From an uncultured Gammaproteobacteria bacterium (lineage in GTDB: Bacteria; Pseudomonadota; Gammaproteobacteria; CAMYKB01): DNA of 37,084 nt. The DNA lies in contig CAMYKB010000018.1 of NCBI GenBank assembly GCA_947258875.1, positions 1 to 37,084 on the forward strand, given 5' to 3'. This document shows positions 1,731-30,894 of the stretch, piece after piece (position 1 is the first letter of the stretch; every line of letters starts with the position of its first letter). Made by a program: the position numbers and the translations under genes. Below the pieces are notes generated by a model. The model ran no database searches. It had not been told where the DNA came from and saw only the letters and a list, made by a program, of their open reading frames with translations.

Positions 1731-1760
1731 AAAAAAAACCCCGCACCAAGCATGCGGGGT
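1731..1760 (-). terminator. Rho-independent terminator of the NasT/flavoprotein/globin operon
   Basis: Read on the minus strand: an 8-bp perfect stem (ACCCCGCA / TGCGGGGT, loop of seven) followed directly by a run of eight T. It lies 170 bases beyond the globin stop codon and closes the minus-strand operon. Confidence 0.85.
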
Positions 1761-1929
1761 AAGAGGAGGATCCTGTAAAATGTTTTATGGAAAATCCGAT
1801 TTACATTTCAATCATTAGTCTGAATTGGTATAAAACAGCGCTTCCTAACCGAATCTGCTCGGCCCTAGTTAAAACGGGTAACATAGCAGCTACAATTGAA
1901 CGCGGGCAGCGCAAACATCGCCATCACTG

Positions 1930-2346
1930 TTATGCCGCTGCTTCAGCCGCTGCCTCCTTCATAGTGTCGGCCAGCACGCCATAGACCATTGTCCAGGCTT
2001 CTTTCACCTCTGAGGTGAACGCCTCGCCCAAACCCTGTTCCAGGGTCCATAGCAATGCGCCTCCCACAGTGTCATAGTCTGCATCCTTGACGCCATAACC
2101 GACGTGACGTCTACCCAGCAACTGTACTGCAGGGACGACTTCCTCCAGACGATCCAGACCATTCACTGCGGTATTGATCATCTTCATCAGTTTGGCGCCC
2201 TGCTCCTGCATGTCCCCCTTGAATAACGGTTTGAGATCGGGATCCATGTCAAACAATTTCCCATAGAACAATTCCGCCGCTTTGTCGGCCATGGGCACAA
2301 CCTTGGCCCAACTTTCTTTCACCAGTACAGCTTGTTCAGGTGTCAT
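1930..2346 (-). CDS. Single-domain globin (bacterial haemoglobin, VHb-like)
   Basis: A 138-residue haem b globin with no reductase domain. Proximal His F8 is His81 in GRRHVGYGV, CD1 Phe is Phe42 in KPLF, B10 Tyr is Tyr28 in ELFYGKLF, and a Gln near 47-49 is placed for E7. A Tyr-B10/Gln-E7 distal pocket is typical of VHb and flavohaemoglobins that bind O2 and NO. The C-terminus ends in an alanine-rich tail. Its ATG overlaps the TGA of the preceding cytochrome gene (ATGA), implying translational coupling. It is the last gene of an operon controlled like nitrate-assimilation genes, so NO dioxygenation or NO/nitrite handling is the likeliest role (inference). The reductant could come from the flavoprotein encoded in the same operon. 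Confidence 0.92.
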   Translation of the reverse strand: MTPEQAVLVKESWAKVVPMADKAAELFYGKLFDMDPDLKPLFKGDMQEQGAKLMKMINTAVNGLDRLEEVVPAVQLLGRRHVGYGVKDADYDTVGGALLWTLEQGLGEAFTSEVKEAWTMVYGVLADTMKEAAAEAAA

Positions 2347-2735
2347 TTCTCTTCTCCTGTTTCGTCAATATAAAATTTCGCAAGCTCCACCATGTAATCC
2401 ACAGCGGCTTTCACTTCTGCATCGCTGAGCGCGGTGTTTCCACCGCGCTCAGGCATGTAACTGTCGTCTGGCCCGAAGAAGCCGTTTATGGCGTGATCGT
2501 AGAGTATTTCCCGCTGCTTGCTGACACGATGTCTCCACTCATTCGGCTTCATTGGAATCGGCGCATCTGCGACCCCGTAGCCATGACAGTTTTCACAGGT
2601 CCCGAGCCATACAATGCGACCGAAGTACAGATGCTCATCGCTGAACTCTACATAGGGTAAAGACCCTGCGCCGGCCGTTGCCGCTGCAAATAACACAACG
2701 ACCGCCGCCATGACTTTTCCCGCCCCTGAGCACAT
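2343..2735 (-). CDS. Small monohaem c-type cytochrome
   Basis: A 130-residue exported protein. A hydrophobic signal peptide or anchor (about residues 7-24) is followed by one haem site, CENCH, and a plausible axial Met in YMPERGGN. The order CENCHGYG...MP...LSDAEVKAAVDYM is that of class I cytochromes c (c5/cbb3-like). It begins five bases after the upstream gene ends and overlaps the globin start by four. Likely a mobile or membrane-tethered periplasmic carrier for the operon; its electron partner is not known. Confidence 0.85.
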   Translation of the reverse strand: MCSGAGKVMAAVVVLFAAATAGAGSLPYVEFSDEHLYFGRIVWLGTCENCHGYGVADAPIPMKPNEWRHRVSKQREILYDHAINGFFGPDDSYMPERGGNTALSDAEVKAAVDYMVELAKFYIDETGEEK

Positions 2736-2740
2736 CAGCC

Positions 2741-3337
2741 TTACAGCGGGATACGGATCACCACACCGCCCATCACGTCACCCAACTTGAAATCCCGCTT
2801 GGGGCTATCTTTGTGGTCGTTGTGACAGGACACACACACCGGAGCCACAGCAGTATCGGCGTATATGGCAGTGAAGTACTTCTTGCCGCCCAGGGTCTCC
2901 TCTGCGTAGTAATTCTCGCCCTTGTTTTCCGCAACAAACTTAAGGCCAGCCTTTTCCGCTTCCGTCTTGGGCGCATTCTGCTTATTAACCGGCCACATGG
3001 ATTGCAGGGAGTAGTTGAAGTTCACATCTGGCATATCGGCGGCGCGCTTAGCCGCCAGTTCCGAACCGAAGCGGAACATCTGCGCGGGCAATACCAAAGC
3101 CTTGTCGTCTTCGAAGTGCTCACTGGCCTTAATCACTTTTTCTTTTTTCACAAGGCGGTTCACGATCTTCTTGGTGTACACGGCACGGTCAGAATCCATC
3201 ACCAGGTGCAGGGCATCCGCCATGGCCTTGGGCGTAATCGATGGGGTACTACCGACATCGGCTGCCACAGCAACGGATAGTCCACCCAGTGTAGCCATCA
3301 CACCCAGGGTAACCAGACTTTTGCTTAATAACTTCAT
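2741..3337 (-). CDS. DUF3365 (Tll0287-like) periplasmic c-haem protein
   Basis: A 198-residue protein with a clear Sec signal peptide ending near VAVAA (about residue 25). The body has the DUF3365 pattern: an N-terminal helix, a FRFGSELAAKRA stretch, an NxNYSLQSMWPxN motif and a C-terminal lobe bearing a single CVSCHNDHKDSPKRDF haem site followed by GDVMGGVVIRIPL. Members are haem-bearing PAS-like domains found alone or in sensors. Here there is no transmitter domain, so it is either an electron carrier or a haem-based ligand binder. It lies 68 bases after the 11-haem cytochrome gene in the same operon. Confidence 0.8.
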   Translation of the reverse strand: MKLLSKSLVTLGVMATLGGLSVAVAADVGSTPSITPKAMADALHLVMDSDRAVYTKKIVNRLVKKEKVIKASEHFEDDKALVLPAQMFRFGSELAAKRAADMPDVNFNYSLQSMWPVNKQNAPKTEAEKAGLKFVAENKGENYYAEETLGGKKYFTAIYADTAVAPVCVSCHNDHKDSPKRDFKLGDVMGGVVIRIPL

Positions 3338-3405
3338 TGCAACATCTCCTCTCGTATCAGATTAAATAAACTTATCAAAAAGCGGGAAGACGTATCCAAC
3401 ATGGC

Positions 3406-4818
3406 CTACTCCTGAACACCCGCGGTTTCTTGCAGCGCACGCTGATGATCCCGTTCAGCGAGCTCCATACTTTTCACGTGTACAACGGATCGGCCGGCGA
3501 AATTTCTGTCGATCAACGCTCTGTCCGCCAATGAATCCAAAGTGAATTCCAGCCCATGGCAATGCAGGCAACTACCACGAATCATCTTGGAATTGGGCGA
3601 CAGGTTGGCACTCTGATTGTGCTCGACCATTACGCGGCTTACCCAGTCGTTCACATCGAAATCCACCCGTGGCATATGACAGCTGGCACAGGAAACACCA
3701 CTGCCCTCGGGTAACGCACCGCTTAGCTCTTTTTGCCAGAGTGCGAAGTGTGGTGATGCACTATAGGCAAGACTGTGCTCATCACTGTGGCAATCCAGGC
3801 AGGCGTCCACCGCTGCAGTATTCGTATCGTAGCCATGGGCCTTATGGCAGCTGTTGCAGGTAAGCGCCTTGTGGGCAGATTCCTGCTTCATGGGCAATCT
3901 GGCCATCGCCGGCGTCATGGGTGACAGCCCCACCGCCAGGCGCATACCATGCTTGCCTTTCTTAAAACGTTCGATCTCCAACCCGTGGCACCGGGCGCAG
4001 CCTGCATCCCCAGGATCATCCTGCCAGGCCGGATCCGCAGCTCCTCCCTGGGCCACCACATGACAGGCACTGCAATTCACCCCGGCCTGTGCATGGGCCG
4101 TAACGGACCAATCACTTTTGATGTCCTGACGGCCACCGCTATCCTCCGGCGCATCCGTGGCATCGGCATCCACGGGTTCCAGCGGATAGCGGTCATGGGG
4201 GTATTCCGTGATCTCGGCAAGTGCTTCGGCCAGACTACGCTCAGGCAAACGCTGTGTTTCCAGCATGTGTGGTTCATGCAGATGCTTCACCAGGAAGTCG
4301 GTATATAGCGCGCGATTGTTGTGAAAGTTGTGGCAACCAGAATCCTTGCAACTTTCGAAGGACATTCCTTCATGACTCGGCCGTTCTTTCGCAACCTCGG
4401 CGTGACAATGGAAACAGATATCCCGTGGCTGGGTCAGGCCATCCTTGAGCGTGATTTCCGGTCGGTGTTCGGTGTGGCACGTGATACAGTTCGTGGCCTC
4501 AATCTTTTCAAGACGGTCAGCGTTGCGTGGATCTGTAAATTTGCTGGCCGGGTGAGAATCATGGGGTTTCTTGCGGTCTTCTCCATGACAATCCACACAC
4601 GCCTGTTGAATCACTTCACCACCACCCAAGGCATCGGTGTGACAGCTGTCACAAGCCTGGCCGATCTGGTGATGCCCCGGACTCAAGGGGCCGGGCATAA
4701 ACATTGTCTTGTCATCGCTTTTAAACATGGTGTACGCCAATCCTGCGATCAAACCCAATATCATCAGTAACCAAATCACCCACAGCTTGTGCTGAGCTGT
4801 TGTGCTTGCCGTTGCCAT
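3406..4818 (-). CDS. Membrane-anchored undecahaem cytochrome c
   Basis: A 470-residue protein with an uncleaved-looking N-terminal helix (about residues 12-32), then a periplasmic multihaem domain. I count ten CXXCH sites and one CX4CH (CKDSGCH, fifth in order), 11 haems in all. The arrangement of paired CXXCH with distal His is that of the cytochrome c3/doubled-CXXCH superfamily; there is no NrfA-type CXXCK and no HAO-like P460 Tyr that I can see. An acidic insertion (about residues 211-233) separates haems 1-5 from 6-11. It starts five bases after the membrane flavoprotein stop codon, so it is the obvious periplasmic acceptor for that enzyme. It may be a nitrogen-oxide reductase or a wire; the sequence alone does not decide. 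Confidence 0.85.
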   Translation of the reverse strand: MATASTTAQHKLWVIWLLMILGLIAGLAYTMFKSDDKTMFMPGPLSPGHHQIGQACDSCHTDALGGGEVIQQACVDCHGEDRKKPHDSHPASKFTDPRNADRLEKIEATNCITCHTEHRPEITLKDGLTQPRDICFHCHAEVAKERPSHEGMSFESCKDSGCHNFHNNRALYTDFLVKHLHEPHMLETQRLPERSLAEALAEITEYPHDRYPLEPVDADATDAPEDSGGRQDIKSDWSVTAHAQAGVNCSACHVVAQGGAADPAWQDDPGDAGCARCHGLEIERFKKGKHGMRLAVGLSPMTPAMARLPMKQESAHKALTCNSCHKAHGYDTNTAAVDACLDCHSDEHSLAYSASPHFALWQKELSGALPEGSGVSCASCHMPRVDFDVNDWVSRVMVEHNQSANLSPNSKMIRGSCLHCHGLEFTLDSLADRALIDRNFAGRSVVHVKSMELAERDHQRALQETAGVQE

Positions 4819-4823
4819 GTTCT

Positions 4824-6818
4824 TCAGAACCAGTAGGTCTTAAAGACATGGAATCCCAACAAAGCCGGCAACGGCCATAAGAGCCAGATGTGCAACTGCT
4901 GTGACAGCTCCCGGGTCCGGCGAACCCACTTGCCGGGCAAACGGTGTTGCAGGCCGATAGCGCCGGCGGCCACAGCACCCACCAGCATCAGACCCACAAA
5001 GGACAGCATGAGCATCAGATTGAGGTTGTACCCGAGGCGCAACCCGGTATGGGCAATCAGGATTGCCGCTACCATTACACCGCTAAGCACGTGCACTACG
5101 CGCCAGCCGGCGAAGCTGCCAAGGGAAAATTTCTTGATGCGTTTACGCAGGCTAATCAAACTGACAAAGACACCCAGTCCCAGTAGCGTAAAACCAGTCG
5201 TTTGTTTCAAAAGTGCATCACGCCAGAGCATGTCCCAGCGCAGCGACCACTGCACGGAATCGGCATAGGGAATGTTGGGCATGACGAGGAAAACCAGGGC
5301 CAACACGAGGCTGAAGGCAGCGGCCCAGGTCAGTGCCCCACTGCCTTTTTCCGCTTCTATGGGCGTACTGCCACCCAGAAGCTCATTCAATAAAGGCTTG
5401 CATGAACCACACACCGTGGAAGCACCGGTACAACGGGCCAACGCCTCTGCATTTTGGCAACCGTTACCAATGGCCAGACTGAGCGCGCCACGGGTAACGC
5501 CTATGCATTGACATACCGTGGCGTTGGCCGGCCACTGAGTGACCTGCTCGGCCTCTTTTTCCGCCCACAAACGTCCCGTGGTCATGAAGCGCCTAAGCTG
5601 CCAGGGCCAGATGTGCCGCTGCTTGTTAATGGACTCTTGTACCCGGGCCAAATCCGGCCATTCGCCCACAGCCATGGCACCCACCAGGCGCCCGCGGTCG
5701 AGCAGCACTTTTTTATAAGATGTTCCTGTACTGTCGCGGTATATTTCACTACGTAGCTGACTGCCTGATTCATCCAGGCCGGTTCGCCCCATGCTGAACA
5801 CCGATACGCCCACTACTTTTAATTTCGTTGCCGACAGAGAACCGCTATAACGGCTGTCGCCACCCGTTAGACTGTGGGCAAGCACCGCAGCCTGCTCCAG
5901 GCCCGGCGCCACCTGGCCGTACAGCTTGCCGCGGTGTTCTGCACACTCTCCTACAGCAAACACATGTGGGTCACTGCTACGCATCTGGTCATCCACCTTG
6001 ATGCCGCGCCCTACGGCAATGCCCGCGCCCAACGCCAGTTGAATATTGGGTTTAATACCCGTGGCGATCACCAGGGTGTCACAGGCGATTTCCCGGCCGT
6101 TGCGCAAACGAATACCCGCAAGCTTCCCATCACCCAGCACCTCGCTAATGCCTTGCATCAGCAACGTCTGTATACCAAGGCTCAGTACATGTTCACGCAG
6201 GCGTTCGCCCGCTTCTTCATCCAGCTGCCGGGCCATCAGCGTGGGCGCGTGGTCCACCACGATGACTTCTGTGTTCGCGCGTTGCAGGCCTTTTGCAGCC
6301 TCCAGACCCAACAGACCAGCACCCAGCACCACAGTGCGGCGGCTTTTGATGCGACGCGCCATCAGGCGCTGGGTATCGTTGAGGTCGCGGAAAGTGAAGA
6401 CACCCGCCTTATCGAGCCCGGGAATATTCGGAATATGCGGAGAGGAACCTGTAGCGAGTACCAGATCAGTATAGGGCTGCTCACGACCGTGCTCGTCCAG
6501 CACTACACGATTCATTCTATCGATGCTTGTAATTGGGCAGTTATGGCGCTGTACCACAGTGGACTCACCGGTGACCGTAAGCGGGTTTTGGATAGACTCC
6601 AGACTGGCCTCACCCGAAAGCACTGAAGACAGGCGCACGCGGTTATAGGCCTCCCAAGGTTCGCCACCATAGAGCACAATGGATTGATACGAATTACGTT
6701 GCAGCACCTCATGGGCAACGCGCATTCCGACTGGGCCGGTACCCACAATCACCAAGGGCCGCCCCCATGGCGGTATAAATGGCGTTTCGCTACGCAATTT
6801 TTCTGCCGTCGCTGACAT
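4824..6818 (-). CDS. NirB-like FAD/BFD [2Fe-2S] oxidoreductase fused to a di-haem cytochrome b domain
   Basis: A 664-residue fusion. Residues 20-410 form a pyridine nucleotide-disulfide oxidoreductase fold (FAD site GTGPVG at 26-31, NAD(P) site GAGLLG) with the EPWEAYNRVRLS stretch typical of NirB/NasB nitrite reductases and rubredoxin reductases. Residues about 430-480 are a BFD-type [2Fe-2S] domain (CQC ... CGSC). Where NirB continues into sirohaem/4Fe-4S domains, this protein has about five membrane helices with two HX13H pairs (His576/590 and His643/657), as in ferric-reductase/NADPH-oxidase cytochromes b. Expected path (inference): NAD(P)H to FAD to [2Fe-2S] to two b haems to a periplasmic acceptor. 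I chose the ATG at 6818; the frame extends to 6896, but that stretch encodes the attenuator hairpins. Confidence 0.85.
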   Translation of the reverse strand: MSATAEKLRSETPFIPPWGRPLVIVGTGPVGMRVAHEVLQRNSYQSIVLYGGEPWEAYNRVRLSSVLSGEASLESIQNPLTVTGESTVVQRHNCPITSIDRMNRVVLDEHGREQPYTDLVLATGSSPHIPNIPGLDKAGVFTFRDLNDTQRLMARRIKSRRTVVLGAGLLGLEAAKGLQRANTEVIVVDHAPTLMARQLDEEAGERLREHVLSLGIQTLLMQGISEVLGDGKLAGIRLRNGREIACDTLVIATGIKPNIQLALGAGIAVGRGIKVDDQMRSSDPHVFAVGECAEHRGKLYGQVAPGLEQAAVLAHSLTGGDSRYSGSLSATKLKVVGVSVFSMGRTGLDESGSQLRSEIYRDSTGTSYKKVLLDRGRLVGAMAVGEWPDLARVQESINKQRHIWPWQLRRFMTTGRLWAEKEAEQVTQWPANATVCQCIGVTRGALSLAIGNGCQNAEALARCTGASTVCGSCKPLLNELLGGSTPIEAEKGSGALTWAAAFSLVLALVFLVMPNIPYADSVQWSLRWDMLWRDALLKQTTGFTLLGLGVFVSLISLRKRIKKFSLGSFAGWRVVHVLSGVMVAAILIAHTGLRLGYNLNLMLMLSFVGLMLVGAVAAGAIGLQHRLPGKWVRRTRELSQQLHIWLLWPLPALLGFHVFKTYWF

Positions 6819-6833
6819 TTCATTCACCCAAAC

Positions 6834-6886
6834 AAAAAGGCGCCCACTCCCGCACAAGTGCAATACCTGCGGAAATGGACGCCTTT
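6834..6886 (-). terminator. Attenuator (intrinsic terminator) controlled by the ANTAR hairpins
   Basis: Minus-strand transcript from 6886: a 19-bp stem counting G-U pairs. The 5' arm, AAA plus GGCGTCCATTTCCGCA, pairs with a 3' arm at 6854-6836. The loop is 13 bases and the element is closed by five T (6838-6834). It ends 16 bases before the chosen ATG of the flavoprotein. Default is termination; NasT-stabilised P2 should allow read-through. Confidence 0.9.
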
Positions 6887-6913
6887 GTCCACGCACCGGT
6901 CGGCTCTGACCGG
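6876..6913 (-). promoter_or_regulatory. ANTAR-target tandem hairpins P1 and P2 (NasT antitermination element)
   Basis: On the minus-strand transcript, P1 is CCGGTC-AGAGCC-GACCGG (6913 to 6896) and P2 is TGGAC-AAAGGC-GTCCA (6891 to 6876), separated by four bases. Both loops are hexanucleotides with A at position 1 and G at position 4, the signature bound by ANTAR domains (NasR, NasT, AmiR, EutV). The loop and 3' arm of P2 are the same bases as the 5' arm of the terminator that follows, so P2 and the terminator exclude each other. The element lies between nasT and the flavoprotein gene, so NasT is the natural ligand. Confidence 0.93.
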
Positions 6914-6994
6914 GCCTTTTTGTATCTCCAGCACCCGCCCTTGGGTACTGTTTCGATTACTGCAATTCCTGCTACCGATCTATTATTGTGTCGA

Positions 6995-7567
6995 TTAGCC
7001 CAGTAGCTTGGCGGAGGCGATCAGACTGTTAGCCACATCCACTATTCTCTGATTCTGCCCCATGGCCATGTCGCGAAGAGCCTTATAAGCTTTGCCTTCA
7101 CTCATGCCCCGTTTGTTCATCAGCATGCCTTTCGCCCGGTCAATCACTTTCCGATCATTCAGTGACTGCCTGGTTTTTTGCAGTTCGTCTTGCAGACCCT
7201 GCATCTTCCGGAACCGCGCGACCGCAATCTCCAGGAGAGGATTGAGCTGCCGCTCGTACAACCCATCCACTATATAGGCCGAAATACCGGCCTCTACGGC
7301 CACGCTGATGCTGTGCTTGCTGCCATCCGCCGTAAACATCACGATGGGTCGTGGAACCTCCCGGTTAACCTTTCCGATGCTTTCAAGGGCGCGCCGGCTG
7401 GGGTTCTGCAAATCCACCATCACCACATCAGGTTGTTGCAGGACGATTGCACGGAGCAGGTCTTCATCCACCGAGACATCACCGGTTACGATATGGCCAT
7501 CATCCTGCAGGATCTCCTGCAAAAAACTGACTCGTTCATGACGGTCAAACACGATTAGTACGCGCAC
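6995..7567 (-). CDS. nasT: NasT-type ANTAR response regulator / antiterminator
   Basis: A 190-residue protein with an N-terminal receiver-like domain (about 1-120) and a C-terminal ANTAR RNA-binding domain (about 130-190) containing the conserved KVIDRAKGMLM helix and the A-x-KALR-DMA segment. The receiver is degenerate at its start: IVFDRHER replaces the usual acidic pair, while the acceptor-site Asp in MVDLQNP is present. NasT proteins are usually controlled by binding the nitrate/nitrite sensor NasS; no nasS is in this window. Start is GTG at 7567 with GAGGTGG ten bases upstream. Its own transcript runs straight into the ANTAR-target leader. Confidence 0.93.
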   Translation of the reverse strand: MRVLIVFDRHERVSFLQEILQDDGHIVTGDVSVDEDLLRAIVLQQPDVVMVDLQNPSRRALESIGKVNREVPRPIVMFTADGSKHSISVAVEAGISAYIVDGLYERQLNPLLEIAVARFRKMQGLQDELQKTRQSLNDRKVIDRAKGMLMNKRGMSEGKAYKALRDMAMGQNQRIVDVANSLIASAKLLG

Positions 7568-7608
7568 CCTGTAATTTCCACCTCTGTTTCTTCAGCACTA
7601 ATTACTAG

Positions 7609-7625
7609 AGCAATGTCTGTGCCAA
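7609..7625 (-). promoter_or_regulatory. Sigma54 (-24/-12) promoter of the nasT operon
   Basis: On the minus strand the sequence TTGGCACAGACATTGCT matches the RpoN consensus TGGCAC-N5-TTGCW with the required GG-N10-GC spacing. It predicts transcription starting near 7598, about 30 bases before the nasT GTG. Confidence 0.8.
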
Positions 7626-7745
7626 GCAGGCGAATTGTTTCGACCAATCTTTGTAAAACAATCGCTTGTGTGGCATTCGCCCAATGCAGGAAAGCTTTTA
7701 GGTGGACCGGCTTCTGCACCGTTTTTGCCGGCATTACTCCGCGCG

Positions 7746-7762
7746 TTCACCAAAACGGTGCA
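7746..7762 (-). promoter_or_regulatory. NtrC-like enhancer site upstream of the sigma54 promoter
   Basis: TTCACC-N5-GGTGCA differs by one base from the NtrC dyad TGCACC-N5-GGTGCA. Its centre is about 155 bases upstream of the predicted start, a usual enhancer distance. A second half, TGCACCGTTTT at 7715-7725, is a perfect 11-bp inverted copy of AAAACGGTGCA at 7752-7762. NtrC is an inference from the motif and from the sigma54/NasT context. Confidence 0.5.
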
Positions 7763-7947
7763 AACCAATGCACATGCAAAATCAAAGCGCTTACCCTTTG
7801 CTGCTGTTTTTTCGGCAATCGCAACCGGTTTCACCATGCGTTGACCGCCCCGGCACGGGGCTTGCTGACTCTAATGCACTACACAGGCGCAATACTGCGC
7901 CGTGCACTACAGTCTTTGTTTTATGGACACTAAATTGCGACCACGAC

Positions 7948-9168
7948 ATGCCTGAAAATACACTTACTTTCATACTTGCCGGCGGTGTGGGTTCACGCCT
8001 GCAGCCGCTGACCTCGGACCGCGCCAAACCGGCTGTTCCCTTCGGCGGCAAATACCGCATCATCGATTTCACGCTGACCAACTGCCTGCATTCCGGTTTG
8101 CGCAAAGTCCTGGTACTCACGCAATACAAATCCCATTCTCTACAGAAGCACTTGCGTGACGGCTGGTCCATTTTCAATCCGGAACTGGGTGAATACATAA
8201 CGCCCGTACCCCCACAAATGCGCCATGGTGAACACTGGTATGCCGGCACCGCCGATGCCATTCATCAGAATCTATATCTTGTGGAACGCAGCGGCGCCGA
8301 ACAGGTGGTTATTCTTTCCGGCGACCATATCTACCGTATGGATTACGCCGCCATGCTCAACACCCACAGGGAAAACGCTGCCGATGTCACCGTGGCTTGT
8401 ATGGAAGTCCGCCTGGAGGCAGCTAAGGACTTTGGTATCATGCAGGTGGACGATACCCAACGCATTACCGCCTTTGAAGAAAAACCGGAAAAACCCATGT
8501 GTATCCCCGGCAATCCCGACAAGGCACTAGCCTCCATGGGTATCTATGTGTTTTCCACAAACCTGCTGATCCAGGTATTGCGTGAGGATCATGAAAACAC
8601 AAACTCCAGCCATGACTTCGGCAAGGACCTGCTGCTGGAACTTACAAAGTCACACAAGGTTTACGCTCACCATTTTGGCGGCAGCGAGGGTCGGGTTACT
8701 CCGGACCGTTACTGGCGAGATGTTGGAACGATTGACGCCTTTTATAAAGCCAACATGGATCTGCTAAAACCCGTGCCGCCCTTGAACCTTTATCAAAGCA
8801 ACTGGCCCATCCGTTCCTATGCGCGCCAACATCCCCCTGCCCGCACCGTGCCCGGACAATCCGGTAACGAAGGGTTTTTCATCAATTCGATTATTGCTGG
8901 TGGCACCGTAATCGCCGGCGGCAGCGTGCAACACAGCGTCCTGTTCGCGGACGTGTACGTGGGCGATGAAGCCATGGTGGAAAACAGCCTGCTGTTCGAT
9001 GGCGCGCGCGTGGGTGACGGTGCCATGCTGCGCAACTGCATCGTGGACAAGTGCGTGGAAATCCCAGCCTTTGAAAAAATCGGCTACGATACAGAGAAAG
9101 ACCGGTCGCGGTTTGCTGTTTCCGACAAAGGTATCGTGGTAGTACCCAAGGGGTGCCGGTTTGACTAA
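7948..9168 (+). CDS. glgC: Glucose-1-phosphate adenylyltransferase (ADP-glucose pyrophosphorylase)
   Basis: Makes ADP-glucose from glucose-1-phosphate and ATP, the committed step of bacterial glycogen synthesis. The protein has 406 residues from ATG 7948, close to the family length. It shows the N-terminal nucleotidyltransferase signature FILAGGVGSRLQPLT...KPAVPFGGKYR, the catalytic GDHIYRMDY motif, FEEKP, and a C-terminal left-handed beta-helix with hexapeptide repeats (about 290-385). The frame runs upstream to 7702, but the extra 82 residues are not GlgC-like, so the internal ATG is preferred although its Shine-Dalgarno is poor. It appears monocistronic and is not obviously linked to the surrounding cytochrome genes. 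Confidence 0.95.
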   Translation: MPENTLTFILAGGVGSRLQPLTSDRAKPAVPFGGKYRIIDFTLTNCLHSGLRKVLVLTQYKSHSLQKHLRDGWSIFNPELGEYITPVPPQMRHGEHWYAGTADAIHQNLYLVERSGAEQVVILSGDHIYRMDYAAMLNTHRENAADVTVACMEVRLEAAKDFGIMQVDDTQRITAFEEKPEKPMCIPGNPDKALASMGIYVFSTNLLIQVLREDHENTNSSHDFGKDLLLELTKSHKVYAHHFGGSEGRVTPDRYWRDVGTIDAFYKANMDLLKPVPPLNLYQSNWPIRSYARQHPPARTVPGQSGNEGFFINSIIAGGTVIAGGSVQHSVLFADVYVGDEAMVENSLLFDGARVGDGAMLRNCIVDKCVEIPAFEKIGYDTEKDRSRFAVSDKGIVVVPKGCRFD

Positions 9169-30800: not shown

Positions 30801-30880
30801 TTCGTGACAAGGGCTAACCGGTTGAAAAACCGGGGCGCAAAGTTACCTGCCTGTCGCCGCAAGGCCATGGTCGAGGGACT
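30801..30880 (+). ncRNA. GEMM-I (cyclic dinucleotide) riboswitch-like leader
   Basis: The core GACAAGGGCTAACC (30806-30819) is followed by the stem CCGGTT-GAAA-AACCGG, whose GNRA tetraloop is the docking loop of the GEMM-I fold. Next come GGCGCAAAG (30834-30842), a second stem-loop GCC-GCAA-GGC (30856-30865) and CATGGTCG (30866-30873). These match, in order, the conserved blocks of c-di-GMP-I riboswitches (GGGCAAACC ... GGACGCAAAG ... AUGGU). The third G of GGGC corresponds to the ligand-contacting G of c-di-GMP types rather than the A of cGAMP types. The closing P1 helix is not obvious. A Shine-Dalgarno follows at 30884-30890. A -10-like TAGAAT is at 30750-30755. Confidence 0.82.
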
Positions 30881-30894
30881 TCCGGAGGAATGCT

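Follow-up and report, generated by a model that had tools for sequence, protein, structure and literature searches.

A NasT-linked operon joining a NirB-like membrane flavoprotein, an 11-haem cytochrome and a globin in an uncultured gammaproteobacterium

The operon and its predicted proteins

The window analysed here is the whole of a 37,084-nucleotide stretch from an uncultured gammaproteobacterium (GenBank contig CAMYKB010000018.1; contig C18 of a 3.01-Mb genome assembly that is 98.5% complete). On its minus strand, positions 1731-7624 hold an operon in which a gene for a NirB-like flavoprotein fused to a membrane domain, and genes for an 11-haem cytochrome, a DUF3365 haem protein, a cytochrome c and a globin, follow a nasT-like regulatory gene. 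The order in the direction of transcription is sigma54 site, nasT, ANTAR double-hairpin attenuator, fusion, 11-haem cytochrome, DUF3365 protein, cytochrome c, globin and terminator. The gene identities, their order and their coordinates had been proposed in a preliminary description of this DNA, and all of them were borne out by domain matches and by direct reading of the minus strand. Open reading frames were called mechanically, and the features of the operon are as follows:

7609..7624, minus strand: sigma54-type -24/-12 promoter site TGGCACAGACATTGC, a consensus match
6995..7567, minus strand: nasT-like response regulator with an ANTAR RNA-binding domain, 190 amino acids (Pfam ANTAR 66.6 bits, Response_reg 35.3 bits)
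6896..6913, minus strand: attenuator hairpin P1 ccggtcAGAGCCgaccgg, hexaloop AGAGCC with A1 and G4
6875..6892, minus strand: attenuator hairpin P2 gtggacAAAGGCgtccat, hexaloop AAAGGC with A1 and G4
6830..6890, minus strand: intrinsic terminator with U-tract, overlapping P2 in a mutually exclusive fold
4824..~6818, minus strand: fusion of NirB-like FAD/NAD, Rubredoxin_C and BFD [2Fe-2S] domains with a C-terminal membrane domain, about 664 amino acids (Pfam and NCBIfam matches)
3406..4818, minus strand: membrane-anchored 11-haem c-type cytochrome, 470 amino acids (haem motifs; hydrophobic segment 14-32)
2741..3337, minus strand: DUF3365/Tll0287 haem-c Cache-type protein with a signal peptide, 198 amino acids (PF11845 69.7 bits, cut-off 24.1, E 5e-19)
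2343..2735, minus strand: periplasmic mono-haem cytochrome c, 130 amino acids (PF13442 36.2 bits; N-terminal hydrophobic segment)
1930..2346, minus strand: cytosolic single-domain globin, 138 amino acids (PF00042 59.6 bits, E 5e-16; no hydrophobic leader)
1731-1759, minus strand: operon terminator with a GC stem and U-tract, read directly from the sequence

In the fusion protein, whose residues are numbered from codon 6821 with Met as residue 2, the stretch 23-496 matches the NirB model TIGR02374 at 416 bits, short of the 578 that this family requires. The match stops at residue 496, and the sirohaem/4Fe-4S nitrite reductase domain that follows the flavin adenine dinucleotide (FAD) and BFD domains in NirB is absent. 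The BFD cysteines C437, C439, C471 and C474 are invariant in 34 sequences, as are all four histidines of the motifs H577-X13-H591 and H644-X13-H658 in the membrane domain; these two HX13H pairs are the likely ligands of two b haems. The residue closing the second beta strand, which usually sets the preference for reduced nicotinamide adenine dinucleotide (NADH) or its phosphate (NADPH), is acidic (Glu or Asp) in 27 of the 34 sequences, which suggests that the fusion uses NADH. No Pfam family matched the membrane haem domain, the best being DUF4405 at a weak E of 0.18. Assignment of a fold to this domain was abandoned, as Foldseek returned only generic helical bundles.

The 11-haem cytochrome contains ten CXXCH motifs and one CX4CH motif, a pattern that is kept in 32 of 33 homologues; a search for plasmid homologues found none. 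Its C-terminal half, with six haems, bears a weak likeness to NrfA and hydroxylamine oxidoreductase, and matches the profiles of NrfA and octahaem nitrite reductase, with E values from 1e-7 to 1e-4 for the family profile. A conserved histidine, H357, is positioned 20 residues before a CXXCHMP haem. In octahaem nitrite reductase, the active-site histidine, His361, lies 18 residues before the corresponding haem. Membership of the NrfA family itself was considered and rejected, given that the protein scores 19.5 bits against PF02335 (cut-off 24.1) and has no CXXCK motif.

The CXXCH motif of the DUF3365 protein is invariant in 34 sequences. The window protein has no Cys outside this motif, and none is conserved in the family alignment, so the axial Cys of Tll0287, which marks the redox-type subgroup, is absent. 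A 2026 preprint reports that a Cys-less DUF3365 member fused to a signalling protein binds nitric oxide (NO) tightly, whereas a Cys-bearing stand-alone member does not, and assigns redox roles to the stand-alone members (PMC12889525). The form found here, stand-alone and Cys-less, fits neither of these classes fully. A single-sequence search of this protein against the PDB gave chance matches only.

The globin is classed as single-domain by its family score and by the lack of a reductase domain, and among solved structures it is closest to two bacterial globins, 3wfw and 3s1i, at an E of about 1e-31.

Conservation and regulation of the module

The fusion, the 11-haem cytochrome and the DUF3365 protein form a trio that is conserved well beyond this strain. 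A scan of GTDB species genomes yielded 17 loci, 15 of them in Gammaproteobacteria or subgroups, one labelled only Proteobacteria and one in Verrucomicrobiales; the gammaproteobacterial carriers include Halochromatium glycolicum, Thiogranum, Ca. Thiobius and Thiotrichaceae. Most of these relatives are metagenome bins. An even sample of the class contained the module in 21 of its 274 genomes, a 22nd match being partial and therefore uncounted, and a sample of the phylum revealed that the module is rare outside the class. Across 34 distinct loci, the three genes are present together on every contig of sufficient length, accompanied by a globin of the window type in 23 loci and by the cytochrome c in 19. 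The preliminary description had named conserved co-occurrence of this set as a check; the presence of the trio across nearly all of the 34 loci clearly shows that it is not confined to one strain. The pairwise distances of the trio proteins correlate (r 0.65-0.77; none of 500 permutations), as expected for joint inheritance, although organism phylogeny alone gives such a correlation too. A second copy of the module, apparently degenerate or misread, was observed in carrier G179 (locus L157, 7720-10341, plus strand), where only the DUF3365 part matches in the set of open reading frames.

The position of the globin is occupied by three classes of protein, namely the common type, a divergent Globin-family form (L037 and L045) and a truncated globin (L058 and L059), the last followed in L058 by a Fer2/FAD/NAD reductase. 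That different globins have repeatedly been recruited to one place is an argument for a globin being part of the function of the module. In a distant member lacking an adjacent globin, a gene for a hemerythrin-domain protein is found upstream of the trio (L155, 12316-12849, minus strand).

The neighbourhoods of the module point to nitrate assimilation. Its recurrent neighbours are nasT (13 loci), nrtA (13), nrtB (13), nrtC-like ATPases (15) and an alginate-export-type porin (8), and about half of the loci adjoin nasT or nrtABC. Genes of the nrt-type ABC transporter are also present beside the module in the Verrucomicrobiales locus. With kinship ignored, ANTAR proteins are enriched in carriers (18 of 21, compared with 68 of 253 non-carriers; p 1e-7), and the same is true of NirB (17 of 21 and 107 of 253, respectively; p 9e-4).

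The upstream region displays the elements of a nas-type control system. The sigma54 consensus occurs three times in the 37-kb window, and only TGGCACAGACATTGC is situated at the start of this operon; sites of the same type lie at most about 390 nucleotides upstream of the fusion gene in nine other loci. The nasT product is the only ANTAR match in the genome, and the attenuator is located between its gene and the fusion gene. Experimentally defined ANTAR targets consist of two hairpins with hexaloops bearing A1 and G4, the second of which is overlapped by a terminator (PMC3369931), and each of these elements is found in the present leader. The linker between P1 and P2 is 3 nucleotides as drawn and longer with the outer pairs open, and the calculated folding energies are -34.8 kcal/mol for the terminator segment and -71.1 kcal/mol for the whole leader. 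No Rfam family was matched at the attenuator.

Strict double-hairpin pairs were found upstream of the fusion gene in nine of 33 loci, compared with an expectation of 0.09 under dinucleotide shuffling; some of the nine have weaker stems or lie near or past the start codon, so that the good cases are somewhat fewer and still far above chance. The preliminary description had named, as a point against its proposal, a conventional nas cluster elsewhere that uses the same leader. In the nas regions of this genome that were scanned, no double hairpin was found; a single hairpin with a six-base loop is located ahead of the apparent nirB promoter. Together with the conservation of the trio, the promoter site, the ANTAR protein and the double-hairpin leader support a distinct set of conserved genes that is controlled by sigma54 and ANTAR.

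A search for NasS in the 98.5% complete assembly found none, since the single NrtA-family match is an exported transporter component with an export signal. This genome therefore encodes a NasT with no recognisable NasS partner.

Relation to nitrate use and alternative explanations

The conventional machinery of nitrate use is encoded elsewhere in the genome. Contig C16 carries nrtABC, a protein kinase/PP2C gene, narK, nirB, a nirD-like reading frame, and genes for a NasA-type molybdoenzyme and for a fusion of an iron-sulfur protein with a DmsC-type anchor, and contig C12 carries napFDAGHBC followed by nnrS. The molybdoenzyme is putatively assigned to the NasA type by similarity and position only, its NCBIfam scores lying under all named-family cut-offs. 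Neither Pfam nor NCBIfam detected a Molybdopterin or NIR_SIR domain in any protein of the operon, and such domains are present on contig C16. The earlier statement that nitrate and nitrite reductases are lacking is thus correct for the operon and incorrect for the genome, where both are encoded. The accompanying proposal, in which a nas operon had lost its catalytic part to a replacement, is not supported, as the genome has nrtABC, narK, nirBD and a nasA-type gene on another contig in addition to the nap operon. Among the 21 carriers, replacement of nitrate reductase by the module was rejected, since long NasA-type matches occur in 13 and a shorter form in a further five, this genome included, and replacement of NirB was rejected for most of them, given its presence in 17. 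Because conventional nas and nap genes lie elsewhere in the genome, the operon is regarded as an accessory to nitrate use and not as a replacement.

Further features of the nas clusters were noted in several carriers. In locus L122 (10846-14873, plus strand), a NasA-type molybdoenzyme gene adjoins one in which an iron-sulfur protein is joined to a DmsC-type membrane anchor. The two may form an assimilatory nitrate reductase fed by quinol, and similar pairs occur in L130, L131 and L133. A gene for a PP2C phosphatase and protein kinase adjoins narK in the nas clusters of L122 (4146-5885, minus strand), L123, L130 and L131. Genome G052 has a sulfite/nitrite reductase gene near NasA.

In the mechanism that we propose, NADH would reduce the FAD of the NirB-like domain, and electrons would pass through the BFD [2Fe-2S] cluster and the two membrane b haems to the membrane-anchored cytochrome with its 11 haems; the DUF3365 haem protein and the cytochrome c are the presumed partners in the periplasm. 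There, NO and/or nitrite would most likely be reduced at a c-haem, and the cytosolic globin would handle NO inside the cell. Expression would depend on sigma54, in response to nitrogen limitation, and on NasT-dependent read-through of the attenuator. The topology and cofactors of the route are predicted from the sequence, and we infer the direction of electron flow, the substrate, the product and the function of the globin. Electron direction in such a route follows from redox potentials and the membrane potential. Gene content, cofactor motifs and predicted topology support the route outlined in the preliminary description, which starts at NAD(P)H, crosses the membrane and ends at c-haems in the periplasm, with an added globin.

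The interpretation that we favour, tentatively and with somewhat less than even confidence, is that the operon belongs to the nitrate-use regulon as an accessory redox module and lowers the reactive nitrogen species arising during nitrate reduction. Consistent with this are the linkage of the trio and its correlated distances, the proximity of nasT and nrtABC, the enrichment of ANTAR proteins and NirB, the three classes of globin, the Cys-less DUF3365 protein, the NrfA and octahaem profile matches at the C-terminus of the 11-haem protein, a genome able to make periplasmic nitrite (nap) that also carries NnrS, and the precedent of the NasT-controlled globin and flavoprotein operon for NO defence in Bradyrhizobium (PMC4724949). 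Detoxification of NO or nitrite in the periplasm, as proposed earlier, is plausible and gains circumstantial support from these features. A bolder version, in which the module would be a new quinone-independent NADH:periplasmic multihaem cytochrome oxidoreductase, its 11-haem subunit a new NO or nitrite reductase outside NrfA and the cd1, Cu and Nor enzymes, and the whole dedicated to assimilation under a NasS-less NasT control, is doubtful.

Several observations weigh against a role in the removal of reactive nitrogen. The NrfA matches are weak, short and possibly inflated by the haem motifs, and the predicted structure of the 11-haem protein, with a mean predicted local distance difference test (pLDDT) score of 63 and a poor N-terminal half, has its best Foldseek match in the PDB, to hydroxylamine oxidoreductase, at a weak E of 0.03 and a template modelling (TM) score of 0.27. 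Every haem motif of the protein ends in His, and an open site is not evident. Since there is no CXXCK haem, and since 12 conserved His outside the motifs could ligate all 11 haems, the protein may be a mere conduit. The DUF3365 protein is stand-alone, unlike the Cys-less NO binder of the preprint, which is fused to a signalling protein. Several loci have no globin adjoining the trio, so that a globin is not always needed there. Finally, the module is strongly but not universally linked to nitrate assimilation: carriers G010 and G179 show no assimilatory NasA or NirB.

Four other explanations were considered. In the first, which we judge unlikely, the module serves assimilatory scavenging, and the 11-haem protein would be an NADH-fed periplasmic reductase that converts nitrite from Nap, or leaking from Nas, to ammonium. 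The likeness of its C-terminus to NrfA and octahaem nitrite reductase would be accounted for, including the conserved H357 near the CXXCHMP haem, as would the sigma54 and NasT control and the periplasmic nap system of this genome. No convincing separate NrfA was found among the 21 carriers, in many of which the match to the NrfA family model is the module's own 11-haem protein. However, the CXXCK catalytic haem is lacking, H357 and His361 are not paired in the printed alignment, most carriers already have NirB, and the globin is left unexplained.

A function in electron supply or redox balance is rather improbable. The module would deliver NADH electrons to Nap, or to other acceptors in the periplasm, without involving the quinone pool, or would dump excess reductant under nitrogen limitation. 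The topology suits transfer from NADH to the periplasm, the 12 conserved His suggest a fully ligated conduit, and nap genes are present in this genome and in G045; but Nap has its own napC and napGH here, nap genes do not recur beside the module, and again no task is assigned to the globin.

That the module is the inner-membrane entry to the multihaem, NHL and cytochrome b561 gene cluster at 10976-36717, with which it shares the window, is very unlikely given its nas-type regulation and the fact that nasT and nrt genes, and no multihaem cluster, recur beside it in related loci. A signalling role, in which the DUF3365 protein would sense NO or redox state in the periplasm and inform a NasS-less NasT, with the cytochromes merely setting its redox state, is hardly probable: DUF3365 domains act as sensors within signalling proteins (PMC12889525) and no NasS-like second NrtA-family protein was found in the genome, but no link between the periplasmic protein and the cytosolic NasT is encoded, and the NADH input and 11 haems exceed the needs of a sensor.

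The remainder of the window was also inspected. The run at 10976-36717 encodes multihaem c-type cytochromes, NHL-repeat and cytochrome b561-like proteins, MtrC/MtrF-like domains and a PKD/cytochrome fusion, and looks like a gene cluster for extracellular electron transfer. Amid its multihaem genes, a c-di-GMP-I riboswitch was detected at 30802-30886 (plus strand; 63 bits, above the gathering threshold). A gene similar to those for glgC-type glucose-1-phosphate adenylyltransferases (7702-9168, plus strand) is divergent from nasT and has similar counterparts near the module in L044 and L047; this neighbour may tie glycogen storage to nitrogen status. Genes for CheB-like (1-930) and CheY-like (1053-1382) proteins, both on the plus strand, are located beside the 3' end of the operon.

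Significance and comparison with known systems

No description of this gene set was found in the open literature searched, where the Bradyrhizobium operon discussed below and the DUF3365 preprint were the only relevant reports; subscription papers were mostly not covered, and the novelty of the module is therefore provisional. Other systems are known in which NO or nitrite is handled alongside nitrate assimilation, whereas the route described here is not known from them. If our interpretation is correct, many Gammaproteobacteria, among them sulfur oxidisers and related groups, assimilate nitrate with a dedicated NADH-driven export of electrons to periplasmic haems, and the flavin half of NirB has found a new use at the cytosolic end of a pathway across the membrane. 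An additional route of NO or nitrite removal would result, possibly affecting the release of nitrite and nitrous oxide (N2O) in sediments. The gene set is compact and conserved and comes with a clear regulatory prediction, which makes it directly testable.

The fusion has the FAD/NAD, Rubredoxin_C and BFD domains in common with the assimilatory NADH-nitrite reductase NirB, but scores under the cut-off of that family and has, in place of the sirohaem half, a membrane domain with four invariant His. Ferric reductases and NADPH oxidases are transmembrane haem proteins in which a cytosolic FAD and paired membrane haems deliver electrons to the outside. The fusion resembles them in its cytosolic FAD, in the two membrane haems suggested by the HX13H pairs and in the predicted outward direction of the electrons. 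By contrast, it has neither a PF01794-type Pfam match nor a fold match to these proteins, and contains a BFD domain and a flavin domain of the NirB type and not of the FNR type.

The 11-haem protein shares with the superfamily of NrfA, octahaem nitrite reductase and hydroxylamine oxidoreductase a C-terminal haem stretch with CXXCHMP and a weak similarity of fold; it differs in its eleven haems, the absence of CXXCK, the N-terminal membrane anchor and a Pfam score under the cut-off. The DUF3365 protein corresponds to the DUF3365/Tll0287 haem-c Cache proteins in its PF11845 domain, its CXXCH motif and its stand-alone periplasmic form, but has no axial Cys and is a constant partner of a multihaem electron pathway.

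With respect to regulation, the leader has the pair of A1/G4 hexaloop hairpins and the terminator overlapping P2 of known ANTAR-target attenuators (PMC3369931), although here it precedes an operon of undescribed content and adjoins the gene for a presumed NasT without NasS. The ANTAR regulator and its cognate leader are also those of Nas nitrate-assimilation operons, whereas the catalytic nitrate reductase and sirohaem nitrite reductase are absent from this operon. The narK-bjgb-flp-nasC operon of Bradyrhizobium japonicum combines a globin and an NAD(P)H flavoprotein with a nitrate reductase under NasS-NasT control and functions in NO defence, a role demonstrated in that organism, in which loss of the globin renders cells NO-sensitive (PMC4724949). 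A globin and a flavoprotein under NasT-type control are common to both operons. In the operon described here, however, there is no nitrate reductase or NasC and no NasS was found, the flavoprotein is predicted to be membrane-bound through its haem domain, and the periplasmic 11-haem cytochrome, DUF3365 protein and cytochrome c are added.

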